A stretch of 64,000 nt of DNA from Chelativorans intermedius (lineage in GTDB: Bacteria > Pseudomonadota > Alphaproteobacteria > Rhizobiales > Rhizobiaceae): contig NZ_JAODNW010000010.1 of the NCBI RefSeq assembly GCF_025398255.1, positions 1 through 64,000 of the forward strand, given 5' to 3'. The notes under the pieces were generated by a model that did no database searches, was not told the DNA's origin, and worked only from the letters and a program-made list of their open reading frames with translations. Below are positions 44,236 through 54,839 of this stretch, one piece after another (position 1 is the stretch's first letter; each line of letters opens with the position of its first letter). Made by a program: the position numbers and the translations under genes.

Positions 44236-44380
44236 CGTTCCTCCCTTTCATTACCATACGCCCGTCGCCGGGATTGCCGTCCGGTCGAGTGGCGTGCTCG
44301 TTGACGGTACCTCTTGCACAATGGCGCGCAATCCGGCTTTCTAAGCACCTTTTCCGGGTTTTAAAGATCGGGTGGGAGCC

Positions 44381-45340
44381 ATGTCGGATGTGAACGGACG
44401 CCAAACGGCCGGAGGCGGAAGGGACGTGGCCCCGCGCACGGTGCCGCGTCCCGACCGCCGCTTCTATGCCACCACCAAGGCATTCGGCCGTTTCGGCATC
44501 CGCTGGTTCATGCCGCAGCTCATGCCGGCCGAACACTGGCATGGCCATATCGAGTTCAACTGGCTCACGGAGGGCTCGATGGGCTACCTCTTCGATGGCC
44601 GTCCGGTGCGTGTCCCGCCGCGGCGGCTGGCCATGTTCTGGGCCGGGATTCCCCACCGCACCGTCAGCATCGACCGGGGCCGGGGCGGCGGTGCCCGTCA
44701 GTGCAACATCTATCTGCCGCTCGACACGTTTCTCCACATGCCCAATCTCGGCCGGCTGACGGAGACCATGATCGGCGGCGGCGTCATCATGCTGCCGGAG
44801 GATGCCGTCGACAACGCGCTCCTGGAGCGCTGGTATCGGGACTATCGCAGCGGCGATGTCGAGCGCGCCGATATCCTCAAGTCCGAGATCGCCAGCATGC
44901 TGCGGCGCACCATGCTGGTCGGCTGGGAGGTGCTCCTGCCGCCGTGGATCGAGACGCAGGAGCCGGTGGCTGGCACCGCCTCACCGCTCGGCTATGTGGT
45001 GGCCATGGTCCGCTACATCCATGAGAACCTGGCCGAGCCGATCACCTCGAAGGACATCGCGCGCGTGGTGGGCCTGCACCCCAACTATGCGCTCAACCTG
45101 TTCACCCGCGTCATGCGCGTTCCCGTGCGCCGCTTCGTCATCCGCATGCGGCTCATCAGGGCGCGTGCCCTGCTCTTCGAGGGCAATCTGTCGATCGCCA
45201 ACGCCGCCTTCCAGTCCGGCTTTACCTCGCTCAGCCAGTTCTACGCCCATTTCCGCGCCGCCTATGGCATGACGCCTCTGGAGATGCGGCGCAGCCTGGC
45301 CGCCAGCGGGCGGCTGCCCGGCCGCATGGGGGAGACCTGA
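44381..45340 (+). CDS. agpT: AraC-family regulator, AgpT-like
   Basis: A 319-residue activator. The N-terminal cupin domain (about 25-120: FMPQLMPAEHWHGHIEFNWL, RLAMFWAGIPHRTVSI) is of the MelR type, and the C-terminal double helix-turn-helix contains TSKDIARVVGLHPNYALNLF and LSIANAAFQSGFTSLSQFYA. Divergent placement 145 bases from the alpha-galactoside transporter gene matches AgpT of Sinorhizobium, which is required for induction of alpha-galactoside genes. ATG 44381 follows GGGAG; a GTG at 44372 is possible. It converges on mtnA. Confidence 0.8.
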   Translation: MSDVNGRQTAGGGRDVAPRTVPRPDRRFYATTKAFGRFGIRWFMPQLMPAEHWHGHIEFNWLTEGSMGYLFDGRPVRVPPRRLAMFWAGIPHRTVSIDRGRGGGARQCNIYLPLDTFLHMPNLGRLTETMIGGGVIMLPEDAVDNALLERWYRDYRSGDVERADILKSEIASMLRRTMLVGWEVLLPPWIETQEPVAGTASPLGYVVAMVRYIHENLAEPITSKDIARVVGLHPNYALNLFTRVMRVPVRRFVIRMRLIRARALLFEGNLSIANAAFQSGFTSLSQFYAHFRAAYGMTPLEMRRSLAASGRLPGRMGET

Positions 45341-45358: not shown

Positions 45359-46465
45359 TCAGGCCGCCGTCCTGGCGCGCTCGGGGAACAGCTTGGCCAG
45401 CCCCTCGGCGGAGGCTTCCGTCACGCCCCGCTCGGTGATCAGCCCCGTCACCAGCCGCGCCGGGGTCACGTCGAAGGCCGGGTTGCCTGCAGGCGTGGTC
45501 TGCGGCGCGATGCGCACCTGGCGGATGCGGCCCTCCGTGTCCCGTCCCCACACCAGCGAGACCTCGTCCTCGGATCGCTCCTCGATGGGGATCTCCTTCA
45601 CGCCGTCGCGCACCGTCCAGTCGATGGTGGGCGAGGGAAGCGCCACATAGAACGGCACGCCGTTGTCATGCGCGGCGAGCGCCTTCAGATAGGTGCCGAT
45701 CTTGTTGCACACGTCGCCCTGGGCGGTGGTGCGGTCCGTGCCGACGATCACCATGTCCACCTTGCCGCGCTGCATCAGATGCCCGCCGGCATTGTCGACA
45801 ATCAGCGTGTGCGGCACGCCGTGGCCGGCCATCTCCCAGGCGGTAAGGTGGGCCCCCTGGTTGCGCGGGCGCGTCTCGTCCACATAGACGTGGACGGGGA
45901 TCCCCTCCTCGACCGCCAGATAGATGGGTGCTGTGGCCGTGCCGTAATCGACGGTGGCCAGCCACCCGGCATTGCAGTGGGTAAGGATGTTCACCGGCTC
46001 GCCGGGTTTCTTTCCGCGGGCGATGCGGCGAATGATGTTGAGCCCGTGCCGGCCGATGCTGCGGTTGAGTTCCACATCCTCGTCGGCAATCTCGGCCGCC
46101 CTGCGATAGGCTGCCGCCGCGCGCTCGCCGGGGGGCAGGGGACGCAGCAGGTTGCGCATCTCGTCGAGCGCCCAGCGCAGGTTGATGGCCGTGGGCCGCG
46201 TGGCATGGAGCTCCTCCCACACCGCGTCCAGCGCGGCATCGCAGGGGTCTTCGCGCATGCGCATCGCCACGCCGTAGGCGGCGGCAACGCCGATCAGCGG
46301 CGCCCCGCGCACCCACATGTCGCAAATGGCGGTGGCGATGCCCGCCACCGTGCGCACGGTCTCGACGCGGAATTCGTGGGGCAGCCAGCGCTGGTCGATG
46401 AGATCGACCGACCAGCCGTCCTCGTTCACCCAGATGGTGCGGAAATGCTTGCCTTCGACTTTCAT
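45359..46465 (-). CDS. mtnA: S-methyl-5-thioribose-1-phosphate isomerase MtnA
   Basis: A 368-residue protein of the eIF2B-alpha/MtnA family. The catalytic cysteine is in [18 protein letters not shown] and the aspartate in [20 protein letters not shown], with [18 protein letters not shown] between them and the N-terminal [13 protein letters not shown] region typical of MtnA. It converts the aldose 1-phosphate (methylthioribose- or 5-deoxyribose-1-phosphate) to the ketose 1-phosphate. It overlaps mtnK by four bases (ATGA) and lies downstream of it. No mtnB, mtnC or mtnD genes of the classical methionine salvage pathway are nearby. Confidence 0.93.
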
Positions 46466-47745
46466 GACAGCCTCCCTGCCGGGGCGCCGCGCCCTTCATC
46501 AAGCAGTTGCGCCAGTTGGTTGATCTCGCCGAGCGAGGTGACATGCCGCCGGTTGACGGCGATGTGGCGGCCGAAGCGCAGCGCCGCCGCCTCGCATTGC
46601 GCGCGCAGCGCCACATCCTCGATGTCTTCGAAATCGGCGTTGTGGGCGAGGCCCAGGATGCGCCGGTGGATCTCGACGCCCGCAAAGCCCAGCATGTCCT
46701 CCCAGACGCCGTGCAGAACGTGGCCGAGCGCCTGCTCGGCGCCCAGCGTGTCGTTCTGCTCTTCATAGAGGCTGCGATGGTACAGCATGCCGGTGCGCTC
46801 CGTGCGCCAAAGCGCGGAAAACTCCTCGCGGAAGACGCGCCACGTTTCCTCGATCACATTCAACAGATAGGCGCGCATGCCCGCCCGTGAACCCCCGGTC
46901 TCGTGGCCCCTCTGCGCGAAGAAGGCCATCCAGAAATTGGCCAGCAGCATGCCGACATCGAAGGCCATCGGCCCGTAGAAGGCGAATTCCGGGTCGATCA
47001 CCCGGGTATCCTGCGCCGTCACCATCACCGAGCCGGTGTGCAGGTCTCCATGCACCAGCGTCTCGGCATTGGCGGCGAACAGGTGTTTCATCCGCTGCGC
47101 CTCCACCCTCAGGTCGCGGTCGGCACGCAGTTCCGCCACCAGAGGGTCGAGCTGCGGCGTGTGCCGGTTCATCGGCGCCCCGAAATAGGGGTCGGTGAAG
47201 ACGAGGTTCTCGGTGATGTCGCACAGCTCCACATTGTCGGCAAACAGCGCCAGGTCCGCCTTGCGCTCGCGCGCCTTCATGCAAAGGTCGGAGCCGCGGA
47301 ACAGCGTGCGCGCCATGAAGAGCCCCAGATCGCGGGCGATCCGCGGCAGCTCCTGGCCCTGGATGAGGGCGCGTCGCAGGATGATGTGCGGCGACAGATA
47401 CTCCATGGCGATGAGCGCCTGCGCCTCGTCGAAGTGGAAGACTTTCGGCACGGCCCCGGGGGCGCGCGCCTCCTGGCGGGTCAGCGCATGATACTCGAAG
47501 AAGGAGCGCTTGAGCGGCAGCGGCCAGCTGTCGCCCACCAGCCGCACATAGGGCAGGGCCTGCTTGATGACGAGGCTGCCCGTCTCGCCCTCCACGATGA
47601 AGACGAGGTTGAGGTTGCCGTCTCCCACCTCGCGCACCTTCCAGCCCTGCGGTGCCCCGCCCACCTTTTCGGCGACGGCGGCGACCGCGCCCAGCCTTCG
47701 GGGCAGCGTTTCCACGGTCAGTGCTTGAAACGCGTCGTCCGTCAT
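46462..47745 (-). CDS. mtnK: S-methyl-5-thioribose kinase MtnK
   Basis: A 427-residue small-molecule kinase of the MTR kinase family. The catalytic loop is [14 protein letters not shown] and the metal-binding [15 protein letters not shown] follows, with [10 protein letters not shown] providing the ATP lysine; the length is right for MtnK. It phosphorylates free methylthioribose (and possibly 5-deoxyribose) at C1. ATG 47745 was chosen over upstream in-frame starts because the family begins with a short run before the [10 protein letters not shown]-like loop (here [12 protein letters not shown]). It is the first gene of the mtnK-mtnA operon, divergent from an ABC sugar importer. Confidence 0.93.
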
Positions 47746-47889
47746 CCCTTCCGTCTCCTCCCTCTCTTGCCGCGGCCCCGGCGGCGATGCGGCCGCTGCC
47801 GCGACGCCGGGTCCCGCGAAGGCCGCCGATCGGGCCGGTCCCGCGCCAGTGCCAGCATGTGCGACCATGAGCACGCTACCAAGGCTCTG

Positions 47890-47916
47890 TCATTTGTCAA
47901 TCATGTTGACAAATGA
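47890..47916. promoter_or_regulatory. 27-base palindromic operator in the mtnK/ABC divergent region
   Basis: TCATTTGTCAA and TTGACAAATGA are perfect eleven-base complements around a five-base spacer. The palindrome lies between divergent mtnK and the ABC importer genes, ending 35 bases before the importer's start codon. The core TGACAAA recurs in front of the SorC-type regulator gene (54828), so I infer it is the operator through which that regulator controls both operons. Confidence 0.65.
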
Positions 47917-47951
47917 TTGAACTGTGCCTAGCGTCATCGTGGGAGGAAGGC

Positions 47952-49463
47952 ATGGGACAAGGCGCCATTTTCCGCATTGCGGGTCTCGGCAAGTCGTTCG
48001 GCCCTAACGAGGTGCTGCGCGGCGTGACGCTGGAGCTGCGCGCCGGAGAGGTGACGGTGCTGATGGGCGCCAATGGCGCCGGCAAGTCCACCCTCGTGAA
48101 AATTGTGAGCGGCGTGTACCGCGCCCAAAGGGGCGAGATGTTTCTGGGCGAGGCCCCCTTCGCGCCGGCTTCCCCGGCGGAAGCCATGCGTGCCGGTGTC
48201 GTCACCGTGCATCAGAACATCAATGACGGCGTGGTCGCCGCGCTCGACGTCGCCACCAATCTTGTGCTCGACCGGCTGAGCGGCGGAGGCCGCGGCATCT
48301 TCTTCAACCCGCGCCGCATCCGCCGCGAGGCGCGAGAGGTGGCGCGCCGCATGGGGCTCGGCATTGATCTGATGGCGGATGTCACCGGGCTTTCCCTGGC
48401 CGACCGGCAGATGGTGGCGATTGCCCGCGCCATGGCGCACGAGCCGAAGGTGATGATCCTCGACGAGCCCACCTCCTCCCTGTCGAGCAGCGAGGCCGAC
48501 CGCCTGTTTGCGCTGGTCGAGCGGCTGCGCGAGCGCGGGGTAGCCATTCTCTACATCTCGCACCGCATGTCGGACATCCGCCGCATCGCCGACAGGATCG
48601 TCAGCCTGCGCGACGGGCGCATCGTCGGTGTCTTCGAGGAAAAGCCGCTCGACTATGAGGGTGCGGTCAACGCCATGCTGGGGCAGAACCTGGGCGCCGG
48701 CGGCATCGAGTCGCGGGAGGCGACGGCGCCGGTCTTCACCGCCGACGGGCTTCGGATCGCCGAGGGCGCCAGGCCCTTCTCGCTCAGCCTGGGCATCGGC
48801 GAGGTTGTCGCCATCACCGGCCTCGTCGGCGTGGGCAAGACGCGGCTTGCCGAAACCCTGTTCGGGGTTCACCCGCCGCTTGCCGGCGCCATGCGGATCG
48901 ACGGCCGGCCCTATGCGCCGTCTTCCCCCGCTGCCGCCATTCGCCGCGGCGTCTTTCTCGTCGCCAAGGACCGGGCGAGAACGGGCATCGTTCCCGACTT
49001 CAACATCTATGAGAACATCAGCCTGCCATTCCTGCCGCATTTTTCGCATCTCGGCGTGGCCAGCAGGCGGGCGGAGCGCGCCGCCGCGCGTGCCCGGATT
49101 GCCGACCTCAAGATCGTCTGCCGCTCCGAGCGCGACGATCTTGCCACGCTCTCGGGCGGCAACCAGCAGAAGGTGACGGTTGCGCGGTGGCTTTCGCAGC
49201 CCTCGCGAATGCTCATTCTCGACGAGCCCTTCCAGGGCGTCGACATTGCAGCCCGGCACGACATCGCCGCCAAGCTGCGCGAGAGCGCCGGCCAGCGCGC
49301 AACGCTCCTTTTCCTGACCGAGCTCGACGAGGCGCTGGAGACCGCCGACCGCATCCTCGTCATGTCGGAGCACACGATCGTCGGCGAGCATCGCAACAGG
49401 AACCTCGACATGGACCGGCTGCTGGCCGATGTGGCGGGCAGGGGGCTTCAGGGCGCGGCCTGA
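47952..49463 (+). CDS. Ribose-type ABC importer ATPase (two domains)
   Basis: A 503-residue RbsA-like tandem ATPase. Domain one has GANGAGKSTLVKIVSGVY, LSLADRQMVAIARAM and MILDEPTSSLSSSE. Domain two has a variant Walker A GLVGVGKTRLAETLF, the signature LSGGNQQKVTVARWLS and LDEPFQGVDIAARHD. ATG 47952 is preceded by GGAGGAAGG. It is the first gene of the importer operon (ATPase, permease, binding protein). Because it diverges from mtnK-mtnA, the imported sugar is probably the MtnK substrate. Confidence 0.9.
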   Translation: MGQGAIFRIAGLGKSFGPNEVLRGVTLELRAGEVTVLMGANGAGKSTLVKIVSGVYRAQRGEMFLGEAPFAPASPAEAMRAGVVTVHQNINDGVVAALDVATNLVLDRLSGGGRGIFFNPRRIRREAREVARRMGLGIDLMADVTGLSLADRQMVAIARAMAHEPKVMILDEPTSSLSSSEADRLFALVERLRERGVAILYISHRMSDIRRIADRIVSLRDGRIVGVFEEKPLDYEGAVNAMLGQNLGAGGIESREATAPVFTADGLRIAEGARPFSLSLGIGEVVAITGLVGVGKTRLAETLFGVHPPLAGAMRIDGRPYAPSSPAAAIRRGVFLVAKDRARTGIVPDFNIYENISLPFLPHFSHLGVASRRAERAAARARIADLKIVCRSERDDLATLSGGNQQKVTVARWLSQPSRMLILDEPFQGVDIAARHDIAAKLRESAGQRATLLFLTELDEALETADRILVMSEHTIVGEHRNRNLDMDRLLADVAGRGLQGAA

Positions 49464-49490
49464 GGAAGAAGGACAGGGAGAGCGCAACCG

Positions 49491-50552
49491 ATGGACAGCG
49501 ACATGGCGGGCAAGGCGACGGCAAGAGTCGAGGAAGGGCAGGGCGCCCGCCCGCGCCTGTCGCCGCGCGAGCTTGCCATCCGCTATGGTTTCCTCGCCCT
49601 GCTTGCCGGCCTCATCGTCTTCTTTTCGCTGGCCACCCGCGGGTTCGCCTCGCCGCAGGCCGCGGTGTTCATCCTGCAGTCGGTCTCCATCACCGGCATC
49701 CTGGCCCTTGGCGTCACGGCCACGCTGGTGGTCGGCGGCTTCGATCTTTCGATCGGCGCCATCGCCACCTCCGCCATGATGGCGGCCGCCTATGTGATGG
49801 TGGTGCTGGAGCAGAACGCCCTTGTTGCCGTGCTTGCCTGCCTGGCCATCGGCGCCCTGGTCGGCCTCATCAACGGTCTCATCATCTGCTACATGCGCGT
49901 GCCCGATCTCCTGGCCACCCTGGGAATGATGTTCCTGCTGATCGGCCTGCAGCGCATTCCCACGGAAGGCCGCTCCATCGCCGCCGGCATGACCCTGCCC
50001 GACGGTTCCACGGCGGGTGGCGCCTTCTCTCCCGCCTTTCTGGCGCTCGGCCGCCATCGCTTCGATTTCTTCATCGAGAACCTGGTGCCCGCCTCGGTGG
50101 TGGTGCTCGTCGTGCTGGCGGTGCTCATCTGGTTCTTTCTCGAATACACCCGCTTCGGGCGCATGATGTATGCCGTGGGCTCCAACGCGCAGGCTGCCGC
50201 CTTCGCCGGCGCGCCGGTCCGGGCCTACAGGATCTGGGCCTATGTCATTTCCGGCGTGTTCTCCGCCATCGGCGGCATCCTGCTGGCCGCCCGGCTGGGC
50301 CGCGGCGACATCGCATCGGGCAACAACCTGCTGCTTGATGCCGTGGCCGCTGCCCTCATCGGTTTCGCGGTGCTGGGCGCCGCCAAGCCGAACGCCTTCG
50401 GCACCGCCATCGGCGCGCTGTTCGTCGGCGTGCTGCTGCAGGGGCTGACCATGATGAACGTGCCCTACTACACGCAGGATTTCGTCAAGGGGGCGGTGCT
50501 CGTCATCGCGCTCGTTTTCACCTTCGCGCTGCTGGGTCGCAACGGCCGGTAG
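49491..50552 (+). CDS. Ribose-type ABC importer permease
   Basis: A 353-residue permease with about nine to ten membrane helices. It carries the RbsC-type signature around GVTATLVVGGFDLSIGAIAT and the ATPase-contact loop YAVGSNAQAAAFAGAPVRAY. The ribosome site GGACAGGGAGAG is close to the ATG. It lies 27 bases downstream of the ATPase gene and 36 bases before the binding-protein gene, in a standard ribose-type operon. The first about 35 residues are a charged cytoplasmic extension. Confidence 0.9.
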   Translation: MDSDMAGKATARVEEGQGARPRLSPRELAIRYGFLALLAGLIVFFSLATRGFASPQAAVFILQSVSITGILALGVTATLVVGGFDLSIGAIATSAMMAAAYVMVVLEQNALVAVLACLAIGALVGLINGLIICYMRVPDLLATLGMMFLLIGLQRIPTEGRSIAAGMTLPDGSTAGGAFSPAFLALGRHRFDFFIENLVPASVVVLVVLAVLIWFFLEYTRFGRMMYAVGSNAQAAAFAGAPVRAYRIWAYVISGVFSAIGGILLAARLGRGDIASGNNLLLDAVAAALIGFAVLGAAKPNAFGTAIGALFVGVLLQGLTMMNVPYYTQDFVKGAVLVIALVFTFALLGRNGR

Positions 50553-50588
50553 GGCGGGATCTTGGAGGAAACACCAGTGGAGGAAAGA

Positions 50589-51644
50589 ATGAAGACCACA
50601 CGCAGACATCTGGGCCGGCTGGCAGCCGGTCTTCTGGCCGCCGGCATGGTGTGGCCGGCTGCGGCGGGCGCGCAGGAGATGCCGGCCCCCTTCGACAATC
50701 CGGGCGAGGTGGAGATTGCGCTGGTGCGCTACCTGTCCACCGGCGACTTCTTCCAGGCCTATCTCTCCGGTGTGGAGGCGCAGGCCAAGGCGCTGGGCGT
50801 GAACCTGCGCGTCTTCGACAGCCGCCAGGATGCCGCGCTGCAGGCCGACATGGTGGACCAGGCCATCGCGCTGGGTGTCGATGGGATCGTCATCCAGCAT
50901 GGCCTGACGGAATCCATGAAGGAAGCGGCTCAACGCGCCGTCGATGCCGGTATCAAGGTGGTCGCCTTTGACGTCAATGTCGAGAACGAGGCGATCCCGC
51001 AGATCGAGCAGTCCGACCGCGACCTGGCCCGCCTGGCGCTGGAGCAGGCGATCAAGGACAATGGCGAAGCCTGGACGGCGGCCTATGTCTATGTTCCCGG
51101 CATTGCGCCGCTCGACCGGCGCAACGAGACCTGGGTGGAGTTCAAGGAGCGGTATCCGGGCATCGAGGAGGTCGCCCAGTTCGGCACGCTGGACAATCCG
51201 ATCGCCAACTCCGTGGCCAATCAGGCCCGCTCCGTCCTTTCGGCCAACCCCGGCATCGAGGTGGTCTTTGCCCCCTATGACGAGTTTGCCAAGGGCGTGA
51301 AGATCGCGGTCGACGAGGCGGGGCTTTCGAGCGACGTGAAGATCTATTCCGCCGACATCTCGACCGCCGACATTGCCGCGATGCGCGAGCCCGGCAGCGC
51401 CTGGGTTGCCACCGCCGCCACCAATCCGGCCGTGGTCGGCGAGGTCTCGGTGCGCGCGCTGGCCATGCTGCTCGCCGGCGAAGACCCCGGCCGCAACGTC
51501 ATCGTGCCGCCCACCCTGATCACCCAGGACATGCTCAACGAGCAGGACATCTCCAACATGGAGGAGCTGTCGCAGAAGCTGCCGCAGTTCGCCCATGCCG
51601 ACGTGGCGGTGCCGGACTGGATGCCGCTGCCGCCGCGCGACTGA
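50589..51644 (+). CDS. Periplasmic sugar-binding protein (type 1 fold)
   Basis: A 351-residue binding protein. ATG 50589 follows GGAGGAAAGA; an upstream frame start at 50562 is less likely. The signal peptide covers about residues 1-28 (MKTTRRHLGRLAAGLLAAGM, with twin arginines and cleavage near AGAQE). The mature domain has the periplasmic-binding-protein pattern ALGVDGIVIQHGLTESMKEA, then GIKVVAFDVNV, and a C-terminal lobe VVFAPYDEFAKGV. It belongs with ribose/LsrB-like receptors. Context suggests 5-methylthioribose or 5-deoxyribose, but the ligand cannot be read from sequence. Confidence 0.88.
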   Translation: MKTTRRHLGRLAAGLLAAGMVWPAAAGAQEMPAPFDNPGEVEIALVRYLSTGDFFQAYLSGVEAQAKALGVNLRVFDSRQDAALQADMVDQAIALGVDGIVIQHGLTESMKEAAQRAVDAGIKVVAFDVNVENEAIPQIEQSDRDLARLALEQAIKDNGEAWTAAYVYVPGIAPLDRRNETWVEFKERYPGIEEVAQFGTLDNPIANSVANQARSVLSANPGIEVVFAPYDEFAKGVKIAVDEAGLSSDVKIYSADISTADIAAMREPGSAWVATAATNPAVVGEVSVRALAMLLAGEDPGRNVIVPPTLITQDMLNEQDISNMEELSQKLPQFAHADVAVPDWMPLPPRD

Positions 51645-51670
51645 GCGCCGGCGCCGCAGCGAGAAGGAAG

Positions 51671-51703
51671 AAAAAGGGGCGGTCCGTCGGGCCGCCCCTT
51701 TTT
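51671..51703. terminator. Bidirectional intrinsic terminator
   Basis: AAAAAGGGGCGG (51671-51682) is an exact complement of CCGCCCCTTTTT (51692-51703). The stem continues with TCC/GGG to a three-base loop. The T-run serves the plus-strand importer operon and the A-run serves the convergent aldolase gene on the minus strand. Confidence 0.92.
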
Positions 51704-51713
51704 CCGGGCCGCA

Positions 51714-53768
51714 TCAGCGCAGCGCTGCGGCGATGTTGCCGCCATCCACCGTGGTCACGCTGGCCGTGGTGCGCTCGGCCAGCGCCAGATGCAGGAAGGC
51801 CTGGGCCACGTCCTCGGCGCGCACCTCCAGCCCCAGAAGATTGCCGCCCATATAGTCCTTCTCTGAGACGCCGCGCGCCCGCGCGCGGCTGGCGATCATC
51901 TCGTCGGTGAGCAGGCCGGAGCGGATGCGGTCGGCATTCACCGCGTTGGAGCGGATGCCTTCGGCACCGTAGTCGAGCGCGTATTGCCGCGACAGGAACA
52001 GCGTGGCCGCCTTGGGCAGGCCATAGGCGCCGAAATTGGCGCCCGGATTGACCGCCTGCTTTGAGGTGTTGAAGAGCAGCACGCCGCCCGTCTTCTGCAT
52101 CTGGAAGATGCGCACCGCGTTCTTCGCCACGTTCTGGTGTGCGAAGAAGTTGAGCTCGAAGCTCTTGCGCAGCGTGGCATCGTCGAGTTCGCCGATCCTT
52201 CCCTGCCAGGCCGCACCGGCGTTTGAGACCACGATGTCGACGCCGCCATAGACCTCCACCGCGTGGTCGAAGGCGGCGCGCACGGCCGCCGGATCGGTGA
52301 CGTCCGCGCCCACCCCTACCGAGGCGTTGCCCGCCGCCTGCGCCGTGGCGCGTGCCTTCTCGGCATCGAGATCGACAACCACCACATGCGCGCCCTCGGC
52401 GGCAAACGCCCTGGCCGTTGCCGCGCCGATGGCCCCGGCGCCGCCGGTGACGAGCATCACCTGACCGGACAGGGGCTTGGGCTTGTTGGCGGCGAGCTTG
52501 GCCTGCTCCAGAGACCAGTATTCGAGCTCGAAGAGATCGGACAGCGCAAGCGGATGGAAGGAGCCGATGGCCTCCGCCCCCGTAACGGCCTCCACCAGCA
52601 TCTCGCCCACATCGGCGGCGATCTTCGCCTCCTTCATGCTGCGGCCGTGGCCGAACAGGCCGAGGCCGCGCACCAGGGTAAGCCGCGGCATGGGATCGAG
52701 CATGGTGCGCGCCACGTCGTCGCGCGCATTGTTGGTCTCGAAATATTCGCGGTAGCGGTCGGCAAACTCGGCCACCTTCCGGCGGATGGTCTCGCCATAC
52801 TCGGCCAGCTTGCCGGCCTCCGGCGCGGGCAGGACCATGGGCCCGGTCTTGATGCGGATGGACAGGTCGGGCGTGGAGACGCCGCGCCTGGCAAGCTCCT
52901 CGGCGTTCTCGGCATTGACGTAGTCGAGGATCTTCGGGGAGGTGCGGAAGTCCGACACCATGCGGGCAAAGCTGCCCTCGCCCTGGGGAACGGCAATGGC
53001 GCCGCGCAGATAGGGGGCGATGTCGGCGGGCGTGGCAAGGGCCGCTGGCAGGCTGACGGGCGTGAAGGGCCGTCTGCCGTGCTGCGCCACGTGCTCCTCG
53101 GCCATGGTGACGAACTCGATCATCAGATCATACGCTTCCTTCGCCGTCTCGGCGAAGGTGAAGATGCCGTGCTTGTCGAGGATGAGGCCCTGAACGGAGG
53201 GGTCTGCGTCGTAGATGTCGGCGGCCGCCTTGGCAAGGTCGAAGCCCGGCTTGATGTAGGGCACGAAGCCCAGCCGCCCGCCGAAAACCTCCCGGCACAG
53301 GGGTTCGCTGTCCTGCTGGTCGACCAGCGCGAGGATGGCCGTGGAATGGGTATGGTCGACGAATTTGTGCGGCAGGAAGGCGTGAAGCAGCGTCTCGATC
53401 GACGGGTTGGGCGCGGAGGGGTCGAGCAGATTGGCGCGCTGCATGGCCACCATGTCCTCGTCGGACAGCGCCTTCAGGCTGCGCGCCGCCAGCAGCGCGT
53501 CGAGCTTCACCGCCGGCAGGCCGGCAGGCTCGATCACGCCCATGTCCCAGCCGCTTCCCTTGACGCACAGGACCTCCCACTCGATGCCCAGAATGTCCTT
53601 CGCGCGGGTCTTCAACGAGGTGTTGCCGCCGCCGTGCAGCACCAGCCGCGGCTCGCCGCCCAGCAGACGGGTGGTGTAGACCCTGAGCGCGAGATCGCGG
53701 GAAACGCCCTTGGCGGCGTAGTCCCCCACCAGCTTTTCGGCCTGGCTGTCGTTCCAAAGGTTCTGCAT
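51714..53768 (-). CDS. Class II aldolase / short-chain dehydrogenase fusion
   Basis: A 684-residue bifunctional protein. Residues about 1-400 are a class II (zinc) sugar-phosphate aldolase domain with LHGGGNTSLKTRAKDILG, the histidine pair in KFVDHTHSTAILAL and LILDKHGIFTFAET. Residues about 435-684 are a short-chain dehydrogenase with VTGGAGAIGAATARAF, SNAGAAWQ, and the catalytic tyrosine/lysine in YGLPKAATLF. The architecture is that of the rhamnulose-1-phosphate aldolase/lactaldehyde dehydrogenase RhaEW, but no rhamnose isomerase or kinase is nearby. With MtnK and MtnA in the next operons, it may cleave a 5-substituted ribulose-1-phosphate to DHAP and an aldehyde, then oxidise the aldehyde. 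It is downstream of the SorC-type regulator gene. Confidence 0.87.
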   Translation of the reverse strand: MQNLWNDSQAEKLVGDYAAKGVSRDLALRVYTTRLLGGEPRLVLHGGGNTSLKTRAKDILGIEWEVLCVKGSGWDMGVIEPAGLPAVKLDALLAARSLKALSDEDMVAMQRANLLDPSAPNPSIETLLHAFLPHKFVDHTHSTAILALVDQQDSEPLCREVFGGRLGFVPYIKPGFDLAKAAADIYDADPSVQGLILDKHGIFTFAETAKEAYDLMIEFVTMAEEHVAQHGRRPFTPVSLPAALATPADIAPYLRGAIAVPQGEGSFARMVSDFRTSPKILDYVNAENAEELARRGVSTPDLSIRIKTGPMVLPAPEAGKLAEYGETIRRKVAEFADRYREYFETNNARDDVARTMLDPMPRLTLVRGLGLFGHGRSMKEAKIAADVGEMLVEAVTGAEAIGSFHPLALSDLFELEYWSLEQAKLAANKPKPLSGQVMLVTGGAGAIGAATARAFAAEGAHVVVVDLDAEKARATAQAAGNASVGVGADVTDPAAVRAAFDHAVEVYGGVDIVVSNAGAAWQGRIGELDDATLRKSFELNFFAHQNVAKNAVRIFQMQKTGGVLLFNTSKQAVNPGANFGAYGLPKAATLFLSRQYALDYGAEGIRSNAVNADRIRSGLLTDEMIASRARARGVSEKDYMGGNLLGLEVRAEDVAQAFLHLALAERTTASVTTVDGGNIAAALR

Positions 53769-53812
53769 GGTCTCCCCGTATCGTTTGTCGGATTGCAGCG
53801 GACGGCGGACCG

Positions 53813-54793
53813 TCACGCGGTGGCCTTGGCGGTCGTCTTGGCGCCTTTCGCCTCGATGTGCTCGATGAGGCGCCGGGCCATGCGCGAGGTCAGCACCAGA
53901 TGCGTGAAGAAACGGCCGGCGATGGCAGCCAGAAGCGGCGCGAACTTCTCGTCCTCCTGCACCACCATCAGCCGGCGGGGGATGGCGCGGATGGAATCGA
54001 AATCGGCCGAGATGATGCGACGGTTGTAGTCGCAGTCGAGCAGCCGGCCGTTGGCGTCGATGATCTGCCCGGCAATCACGCCAGCCGCGCCCTGCTGCTT
54101 GAGCGCCTGCAGCTCCGCCAGGCCAAGCGCCCCGCACTTGATGACATGGCTGTCCTCGTCCAGCGTGCCCACGGTAAACAGCGCCAGGTCGCAGGCGCTG
54201 ATGCCGTCGAGCTGCTCGCGGATGACCGGCTCCTCGCGCAGGCGGTTTGCCAGATCCGGTGTGCTGAGCACCAGCGGCGCGTAGAAATTGAGGCCGCGGG
54301 CATTGAGCCGGCGGGCGATCTCCATCGTGCACTGGTCGGGACGGTAGGAATAGGGAGAGCCGAGATTGCCGCACAGCTCCACCACGGTCACGCCCTGCCG
54401 GTCGGCATAGGCCATGGCATCGGCAATGGCATAGACGGTGCGGCCCCAGGCGACGCCCACCCGGTCGCCATTCTTCACCATCTCGAGAAACACGCTGGCC
54501 GCCAGCGTCGGGATCTCGGCAGCAGGATCGTCGTTCAGCCCTTCGCCGCCGGCGATCCACACCGTTTCCAGACCCAGCGCATCCTCCAGAAGGCGCGCCA
54601 TCCTGTCTTCGCGGAAAAGCTGTGTGGAGGTGGAGATGTGGACGATGCCCGCCTCGCGCGCCCGGCGCAGGTAGAGCGCCACGGAAGCACGCGAGATGTT
54701 GAGGCGCTGCGCCACTTCGTCCTGGCGCAAGCCGTGGGTGTAGTAAAGCCATGCCGCCTTGTGGACGATCTGATCTGCCGGACGATAAGCCAT
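53813..54793 (-). CDS. SorC/DeoR-type sugar-binding transcriptional regulator
   Basis: A 326-residue regulator. The N-terminal helix-turn-helix is LRQDEVAQRLNISRASVALY, followed by LRRAREAGIVHI. The C-terminal sugar-phosphate-binding domain (about 65-310) has VGVAWGRTVYAIADAMAYAD and SPYSYRPDQCTMEIARRLNA, as in LsrR/SorC proteins. ATG 54793 was chosen because GGAGGCGCGCT stands before it; ATG 54814 lacks a ribosome site. It is the first gene of an operon with the aldolase fusion. The likely effector is a sugar phosphate made by MtnK/MtnA or consumed by the aldolase. Confidence 0.88.
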   Translation of the reverse strand: MAYRPADQIVHKAAWLYYTHGLRQDEVAQRLNISRASVALYLRRAREAGIVHISTSTQLFREDRMARLLEDALGLETVWIAGGEGLNDDPAAEIPTLAASVFLEMVKNGDRVGVAWGRTVYAIADAMAYADRQGVTVVELCGNLGSPYSYRPDQCTMEIARRLNARGLNFYAPLVLSTPDLANRLREEPVIREQLDGISACDLALFTVGTLDEDSHVIKCGALGLAELQALKQQGAAGVIAGQIIDANGRLLDCDYNRRIISADFDSIRAIPRRLMVVQEDEKFAPLLAAIAGRFFTHLVLTSRMARRLIEHIEAKGAKTTAKATA

Positions 54794-54827
54794 AGCGCGC
54801 CTCCGGTTAGACATTATTCACGGGCTC

Positions 54828-54839
54828 TGACAAAAGTCA
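54828..54839. promoter_or_regulatory. Operator-like palindrome upstream of the SorC-type regulator
   Basis: TGAC-AAAA-GTCA is a perfect palindrome 35 bases upstream of the chosen start codon. It shares the TGACAAA core with the larger palindrome at 47890, consistent with autoregulation by the SorC-family protein. Confidence 0.45.

Follow-up and report, generated by a model that had tools for sequence, protein, structure and literature searches.

A predicted SorC-regulated module for the uptake and breakdown of free 5-methylthioribose in Chelativorans intermedius

Overview

The window analysed here is a 64,000-nucleotide stretch of DNA from Chelativorans intermedius (contig NZ_JAODNW010000010.1, C2 in our numbering, of a 4.18 Mb genome with a completeness of 99.97%). 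Open reading frame (ORF) listing and profile scans place within 9.5 kb of it the genes mtnK and mtnA, a divergent three-gene ATP-binding cassette (ABC) importer, a class II aldolase fused to a short-chain dehydrogenase/reductase (SDR) and a SorC-type regulator, and all the genes that the initial annotation had named are thus present. The locus is best read as a module, under SorC-type control, for the catabolism of free 5-methylthioribose (MTR), and possibly also of 5-deoxyribose, a reading that sequence comparison supports with a probability of roughly 0.77; between the two sugars, MTR is somewhat more likely. The identities of the genes, their conserved linkage, the operator sequence that they share and the family of the binding protein were observed directly.

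In the proposed pathway, the ABC importer would take the free sugar into the cell, MtnK would phosphorylate it to the 1-phosphate and MtnA would isomerise the latter to the ribulose-1-phosphate, which would be split by the aldolase domain of the fusion protein into dihydroxyacetone phosphate (DHAP) and an aldehyde, either acetaldehyde or its methylthio derivative. That aldehyde may then be disposed of by the SDR domain, by oxidation to the acid or by reduction to the alcohol, and the regulator is expected to act at both operators of the locus in response to a pathway intermediate. What we infer is that each of these reactions takes place in C. intermedius, which ligand is bound, in which direction the SDR works and that the SorC-type protein binds the operators.

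Organization of the locus

The features of the module, in order along the window, are the following.

45359-46465, minus strand: mtnA, 5-methylthioribose-1-phosphate isomerase (TIGR00512, 427 bits; cut-off 279)
46462-47745, minus strand: mtnK, 5-methylthioribose kinase (TIGR01767, 499 bits; cut-off 275)
47888-47918, no strand: operator 1, in the divergent mtnK/importer promoter (matrix score 38.6 bits)
47952-49463, plus strand (listed ORF from 47913): importer ATPase (ABC_tran, in two stretches)
49491-50552, plus strand: importer permease (PF02653 BPD_transp_2, 137 bits)
50589-51644, plus strand: periplasmic binding protein, predicted to bind MTR (4ry8, E 3e-66; signal-like N-terminus)
51714-53768, minus strand: fused class II aldolase/SDR of 684 residues (NF006192, 1116 bits; cut-off 639)
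53813-54790, minus strand (listed start 54814): SorC/DeoR-type sugar-binding regulator (Sugar-bind PF04198, 170 bits)
54809-54839, no strand: operator 2, before the regulator-aldolase operon (matrix score 29.8 bits)

With the listed starts, the successive intergenic gaps are -4, 167, 27, 36, 69 and 44 bases, the first being the 4-base overlap of mtnK and mtnA; GGAGGAGA lies upstream of the mtnK start. The ORF listing lets the ATPase begin at 47913 and the regulator at 54814, both within the operators; the starts at 47952 and 54790 fit better, the former being preceded by a GGGAGGAAGGC ribosome site and the latter, which leaves the operator outside the gene, by a GGAGG ribosome site. The top PDB match of MtnA is 1t9k, titled 'Probable methylthioribose-1-phosphate isomerase' (E 2e-75), and MtnK matches 2pyw, whose molecule is named 'Uncharacterized protein' (E 8e-103), and the methylthioribose kinase 2olc (E 2e-77). 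Against models of the AraG, YtfR and RbsA type, the ATPase scores under the cut-offs of those models.

The importer and its predicted ligand

In sequence searches against the PDB, the binding protein at 50589, whose position in the initial annotation is confirmed, has 4ry8 as its best match, followed by 5ulb (3.5e-39); ribose binders reach E 5e-15 or weaker and binders of autoinducer-2 (AI-2) about 1e-6. The AlphaFold2 model of the protein, with a mean predicted local distance difference test score (pLDDT) of 87.5, leads to the same structure, since chains of 4ry8 occupy ranks 1-3 in Foldseek, with 38% identity over 314 alignment columns and a best E of 5.6e-33. The entry is titled '5-methylthioribose transporter solute binding protein TLET_1677 from Thermotoga lettingae', and we take its crystal to contain MTR itself. 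The runs that the two proteins have in common include HG, FD, IEQ.D, APLD.R...W, DEFAKG and YS.D..T.DI, and the binding protein of the window is predicted from these comparisons to bind MTR. Import of AI-2 by a system of the Lsr type was considered and rejected: the LsrB model gives 30.7 bits (384 required) and the LsrR model 94.6 (486 required), and no AI-2 kinase was matched in the ten locus proteins scanned.

The distribution of the importer was followed in 199 genomes of the order, with at most 11 candidates scored per genome. In 25 of them the binding protein has a match with an E value no higher than 1e-40, and all 18 genomes with a binding protein at least 69% identical have its gene within the mtnK locus, about 4 kb from mtnK. 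The binding proteins of two further genomes, G099 and G130 (53-61%), likewise flank mtnK. The G099 copy (locus L055, 9373-16535; 59% identical) sits beside mtnK, mtnB (TIGR03328, 176 bits; cut-off 137) and an acireductone dioxygenase gene, and this neighbourhood ties the importer family to a methylthio sugar. L055, the only one of these loci scanned by family, also has a deaminase-like amidohydrolase and a nucleoside hydrolase among its neighbours. Given these neighbours, MtnB and the dioxygenase included, the importer family in G099 appears to feed methionine salvage, probably in its ordinary form. A member of the family in G130 (L053) lies beside mtnK and an acireductone dioxygenase gene.

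These results bear on the proposal that the main substrate is not MTR but 5-deoxyribose, a by-product of radical S-adenosylmethionine (SAM) enzymes, and that the locus is a salvage system of the drdKIA type equipped with an importer. DrdK, DrdI and DrdA act on 5-deoxyribose, some of their clusters include sugar transporters and the tandem also converts MTR (PMC6079011). The binding protein, however, is nearest to a protein titled as MTR-binding, and in G099 the importer family accompanies mtnB and the dioxygenase, members of a pathway that retains the methylthio group. Taken together, 5-deoxyribose appears rather unlikely as the main substrate. In FastTree trees of MtnK and MtnA, copies from near relatives of the window form a group and module and non-module copies are otherwise intermixed, so these trees do not separate MTR enzymes from 5-deoxyribose enzymes.

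Conservation of the module

The 80 named relatives counted here are the best of 583 confirmed matches, that is, close relatives and no census; the 10 of these loci that are under 15 kb were excluded, which leaves 70 untruncated loci, and a gene called absent is one that the roughly 21 kb retrieved for each locus does not contain. The initial annotation had looked to a survey of conserved co-occurrence, and the importer, mtnK and mtnA do stand side by side in 70 of 70 untruncated loci, with a SorC-type regulator in 69. A chance neighbourhood was rejected given this linkage, that found in the 18 of 18 genomes described above and the shared operators. The closest binding proteins among these matches are from Chelativorans (93% identity in the best segment). 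The aldolase-SDR gene is found in 55 of the 70 loci, 7 of these copies being 49-51% identical, while 35 encode a RuBisCO-like protein (RLP) together with a split transketolase; both sets occur together in 25 loci, the aldolase-SDR alone in 30, the RLP and transketolase alone in 10 and neither in 5.

The importer and mtnKA are also found on pSymB of S. meliloti, and fuller versions of the module are carried by plasmids of Shinella, Pararhizobium and Mariluticola, in which the genes of the operon, in the order mtnK, mtnA, transketolase N, transketolase C and RLP, overlap or stand no more than 13 bases apart. A proteomics table for S. meliloti lists both SMb20620, a putative sugar ABC transporter, and SMb20623, the S-methyl-5-thioribose kinase, and thiC is SMb20615 (PMC12542648). 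A predicted psicose transporter (PMC4961836) was considered and set aside as a different locus, the S. meliloti homologue lying beside thiC.

Two neighbouring genes may be mentioned here. At 44372-45340 of the window, a gene for a MelR-like AraC-type regulator is convergent with mtnA and occupies the same place in just two of the 80 relatives, L109 and L110. On the Mariluticola plasmid (L013, 13264-14067), a gene annotated as a class D beta-lactamase adjoins the regulator of the module.

A shared operator

A motif made of two 12-bp boxes (TGACAWWWGTCA-like) with a 7-bp spacing is common to the intergenic DNA of the window and of seven further loci, and it occurs before mtnK and the ATPase gene and again before the regulator gene. 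A symmetric matrix was built from 11 sites of six other loci and zero sites of the window, although the box pattern itself was chosen after the promoters of the window had been viewed alongside the other loci. Operator 1 (47888) and operator 2 (54809) are the first and second places of the whole 64 kb; the next place (8.1) is a shifted overlap of operator 2, the remainder score at most 5.6, and the highest score in 20 mononucleotide shuffles of the window is 11.5. As a pattern, written post hoc, the motif matches operator 1 with 0 mismatches (0.00 expected) and operator 2 with 1 mismatch.

In the 1,531,784 bases of the 80 relatives there are 131 sites of at least 20 bits, 68 before mtnK or the ATPase gene and 63 before the regulator gene, and none elsewhere. 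Strong sites in these loci are thus confined to the two expected promoters, and the two operons of the window appear, on this sequence evidence, to form one regulon.

Where the transketolase and RLP genes directly follow mtnKA, they come under the mtnK operator. In an alternative layout with the transketolase beside the binding protein (10 loci), three loci have a 29-36-bit site before the transketolase gene and seven have none. The three loci with this strong operator-like site before the transketolase-RLP genes, L047 (4181), L048 (5237) and L052 (14658), have no comparable mtnK site.

Origin of the sugar and methionine salvage

The products of mtnK and mtnA are also the first steps of canonical methionine salvage, and in that reading they would feed MtnB, MtnC or MtnW-MtnX, and MtnD encoded elsewhere in the genome, the aldolase-SDR being unrelated. 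Acireductone dioxygenase does score over cut-off in 2 of the 44 genomes of the survey that have mtnK. It does not in the other 42, and a genome-wide search for MtnD (PF03079) found no match in the genome of the window, as the initial annotation had noted for the locus; the aldolase-SDR operon moreover shares its operator with mtnK. Canonical salvage is, then, a very improbable explanation of the locus. MtnB and MtnC were not noted at the locus, the genome-wide search having covered MtnD and not MtnB, MtnC or MtnX, and the RuBisCO family, hence MtnW, has no match in this genome.

The same genome gives no match for a phosphorylase of methylthioadenosine (MTA) at E 1e-30. Its PF01048 proteins are three, two purine nucleoside phosphorylases and one AMP nucleosidase, and the family thus yields no MTA nucleosidase. 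With no match for the dioxygenase, MTA phosphorylase or a PF01048 MTA nucleosidase, the substrate of the module is probably a free sugar that comes from outside the cell.

The fused aldolase-dehydrogenase

The fused enzyme consists of an Aldolase_II and an adh_short domain, which in its structural model (mean pLDDT 89.2) resemble 3m4r and 4dqx, respectively. His139, His141 and His200, presumably the metal ligands, are invariant in 21 of 21 aligned sequences, as are Tyr582 and Lys586 of the SDR half. Residue 125, which we take to be the catalytic acid, is Glu in 15 of the 21 rows and Asp in all six rows of the RhaD type, defined as those that group with the copy in this genome's own rhamnose locus (L092). 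Glu125 is also present outside mtnK-linked copies and is thus not special to them. The presence of Asp466 suggests that the SDR half uses nicotinamide adenine dinucleotide (NAD).

The RhaD/RhaEW-type fused architecture and a score of 500 bits (499.8) against TIGR02632 would also agree with a unit for L-rhamnose or another deoxyhexose, formed by the aldolase-SDR and regulator genes and merely adjoining mtnKA. That score, however, is under the family cut-off of 567.75, a FastTree tree of 33 sequences splits the RhaD type from the rest with a local support of 1.000, residue 125 is Asp in the RhaD type and Glu here, the operator is shared with mtnK, and the genome has a separate, rhizobial-type rhamnose locus on contig C14 (L092) with a fused RhaD (1079 bits), a rhamnose isomerase (843 bits) and ABC importer genes. 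The initial annotation had reported that rhamnose isomerase was missing, which holds for the module, since neither the isomerase nor the rhamnose kinase was found in the ten locus proteins scanned, but fails for the genome as a whole. A rhamnose unit here is hardly credible; the missing dioxygenase match and the separate rhamnose locus together make both methionine salvage and rhamnose catabolism unlikely, and the locus is better explained as a module for free MTR.

As for the direction of the SDR step, the aldehyde may be reduced to 2-methylthioethanol or ethanol instead of being oxidised. SDRs are often reversible, which would permit reduction, whereas the SDR half of RhaEW is a lactaldehyde dehydrogenase, which argues for oxidation, and oxidation would presumably give more energy from an aerobic carbon source. 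In R. rubrum and R. palustris, the product detected downstream of the aldolase is 2-(methylthio)ethanol (PMC5893883), and reduction is a real possibility, short of being the probable course.

The nearest relatives of the enzyme outside the module are of two kinds: those of L067 and L068 run with mtnA and mtnK, with the importer not in the stretch, and those of L069-L071 are 52% identical. A close cousin at L094 (4065-11730) is accompanied by an FGGY kinase, a SorC-type regulator, a protein resembling glycerol-1-phosphate dehydrogenase and a second SDR; similar copies cluster at L093 and L095, families having been scanned in L094 only. The L094-type cluster presumably serves a separate sugar pathway.

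Weighing the assignment

Several observations weigh against the proposed module for MTR. The substrate predicted for the proteins of this clade is drawn from sequence comparison. The aldolase domain finds in the PDB the uncharacterised 3m4r (E 2e-48) and otherwise nothing better than E 0.75, stand-alone sugar-phosphate aldolases being not significant. The L070 copy is flanked by an FGGY kinase gene and a gene like that of glycerol-1-phosphate dehydrogenase, neighbours which imply that the subfamily serves another sugar too; the substrate is therefore pointed to by the linkage with mtnKA and by the operator, not by the name of the subfamily. With regard to the importer, five of the 199 genomes (G023, G187, G085, G198 and G045) have a 48-58% identical binding protein and no mtnK over cut-off, and no mtnA was seen within the L055 stretch. 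The 44 genomes with mtnK have 46 mtnK places over cut-off; the importer is in the fetched stretch at 20, the window included, and not at the other 26, a few or more of them truncated by the end of a contig. The gene mtnK is by itself no indicator of the importer.

The operator and the gene content of relatives add further points of this kind. Sites of at least 20 bits are lacking in 12 of the 80 relatives; five of these are truncated contigs (L129, L147, L149, L163 and L188), and in the other seven the SorC protein is merely 31-38% identical. The conservation of the operator also owes part to common descent. Finally, the five relatives with neither end and S. meliloti pSymB have no aldolase-SDR and no RLP or transketolase in the fetched stretch. 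The loci with the importer and mtnKA and neither end in the stretch are L012/L016 (S. meliloti pSymB), L049, L112, L123, L146, L170 and L187.

A possible second end for the pathway in relatives

The strongest new lead is the putative RLP and transketolase end in relatives of the module. A split transketolase and an RLP are encoded at L013 (731-3787), L014 (14366-17429) and L015 (3736-6793), in the mtnKA operon or beside the binding protein gene; the scores that follow are those of the L013 set only. The L013 RLP gives 196 bits against the MtnW-type model (cut-off 409) and 73 bits against OiaX (cut-off 700), among solved structures it is most closely related to 3qfw, and the IKP and KDD motifs are retained. 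Of the two transketolase pieces, one corresponds to the N half and one to the C half of transketolase/DXS models, with scores under the cut-offs. Split transketolases are otherwise known to act on apulose-4-phosphate.

These genes suggest, tentatively and with a little less than an even chance of being right, that one imported sugar has two interchangeable ends, an aldolase-SDR that leads to DHAP, or an RLP and a split transketolase that lead to glyceraldehyde-3-phosphate and a two-carbon unit. In the second, the RLP would shift 5-methylthioribulose-1-phosphate (or 5-deoxyribulose-1-phosphate) to 1-methylthio- or 1-deoxyxylulose-5-phosphate, and we infer that a thiamine enzyme acts next on this xylulose-5-phosphate, which it would cut into glyceraldehyde-3-phosphate and the two-carbon unit. 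The 1,3-isomerisation by an RLP to 1-(methylthio)xylulose-5-phosphate has been published (PMC5893883), and a 'RubisCO-like MTRu-1P isomerase' is given in a table (PMC4958253). No RLP working with a transketolase in MTR metabolism was found in the literature searched, which consisted mostly of titles and the beginnings of abstracts and included few subscription papers.

Two RuBisCO-family matches, at G115:C12:1029498-1030271 and G080:C1:2636744-2637517, each contain one in-frame TAG and may be either broken genes or matches that run past a stop.

Implications

MTR and 5-deoxyribose are by-products of SAM-dependent chemistry and are released by some cells. If the proposed function is correct, many Hyphomicrobiales, rhizobia included, would scavenge them as food by means of a dedicated and regulated importer that relies on a binding protein, coupled to cleavage by one enzyme. 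The second end, if it exists, would give an RLP a new role and rhizobia and related bacteria a new exit from MTR metabolism, perhaps with a link to the isoprenoid precursor 1-deoxyxylulose-5-phosphate, and it offers a concrete reaction for an RLP group for which no description of function was found in the literature searched. The importer-mtnKA part is present in S. meliloti, a genetic model, and that part is therefore directly testable there.

Comparison with known systems

The initial annotation had proposed an importer coupled to a DHAP shunt; what has been borne out is the module and its linkage, now with a shared operator, the distinction from rhamnose catabolism and from classical salvage, and a binding protein of the 4ry8 type. 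Its claim that such a coupling, with an aldolase-SDR fusion, appeared undescribed is too broad. Clusters of kinase, isomerase and aldolase genes have been described, four of those drawn including sugar transporter genes (Beaudoin 2018, PMC6079011), and a DHAP-shunt operon with a putative transporter is known in E. coli (PMC12632272), whose pathway is the subject of PMC10986504. Both PMC6302742 and PMC4239095 refer to transporters for MTR; the former reviews the pathway variants, cites MTR transporters in the supplement of Borriss 2018 and nowhere uses the term 'ABC'. The published clusters narrow the claim of novelty to those elements for which the literature searched gave no description: an aldolase-SDR fusion that accompanies mtnKA and an ABC importer and has an operator sequence in common with them, and the RLP/transketolase branch of homologous loci.

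Among the known systems, the drdK-drdI-drdA cluster (PMC6079011) resembles the module in its kinase and isomerase, and in that some clusters have sugar transporter genes. Its aldolase is a homologue of fuculose-1-phosphate aldolase, whereas the window has an aldolase-SDR fusion, an importer of the RbsABC type and a shared operator. The DHAP shunts of E. coli, R. rubrum and R. palustris (mtnK or mtnP, mtnA and ald2) have the same proposed chemistry, leading to DHAP and an aldehyde. They differ in their source, which is MTA or 5'-deoxyadenosine processed by a nucleosidase or a phosphorylase, enzymes without a match in the genome of the window, and in having a separate Ald2, under the control of MtnR and CRP in E. 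coli (PMC12632272). Tlet_1677 of Thermotoga lettingae (4ry8) has the same fold as the binding protein at 38% identity and belongs to a different phylum. RhaD/RhaEW (TIGR02632) shares its two-domain architecture with the fused enzyme, which is nonetheless under the family cut-off, in a separate clade and outside the rhamnose locus. R. palustris has a dual route made of an isoprenoid shunt (RLP1) and a DHAP shunt (Ald2) (PMC5893883), two branches such as the genes of 25 of the 70 relatives suggest, although the genome of the window, unlike R. palustris, has no RLP match. The R. palustris RLP is of the DeepYkr type and works with a cupin, whereas the L013 RLP is MtnW-like, far under the cut-off, and is encoded with a split transketolase.

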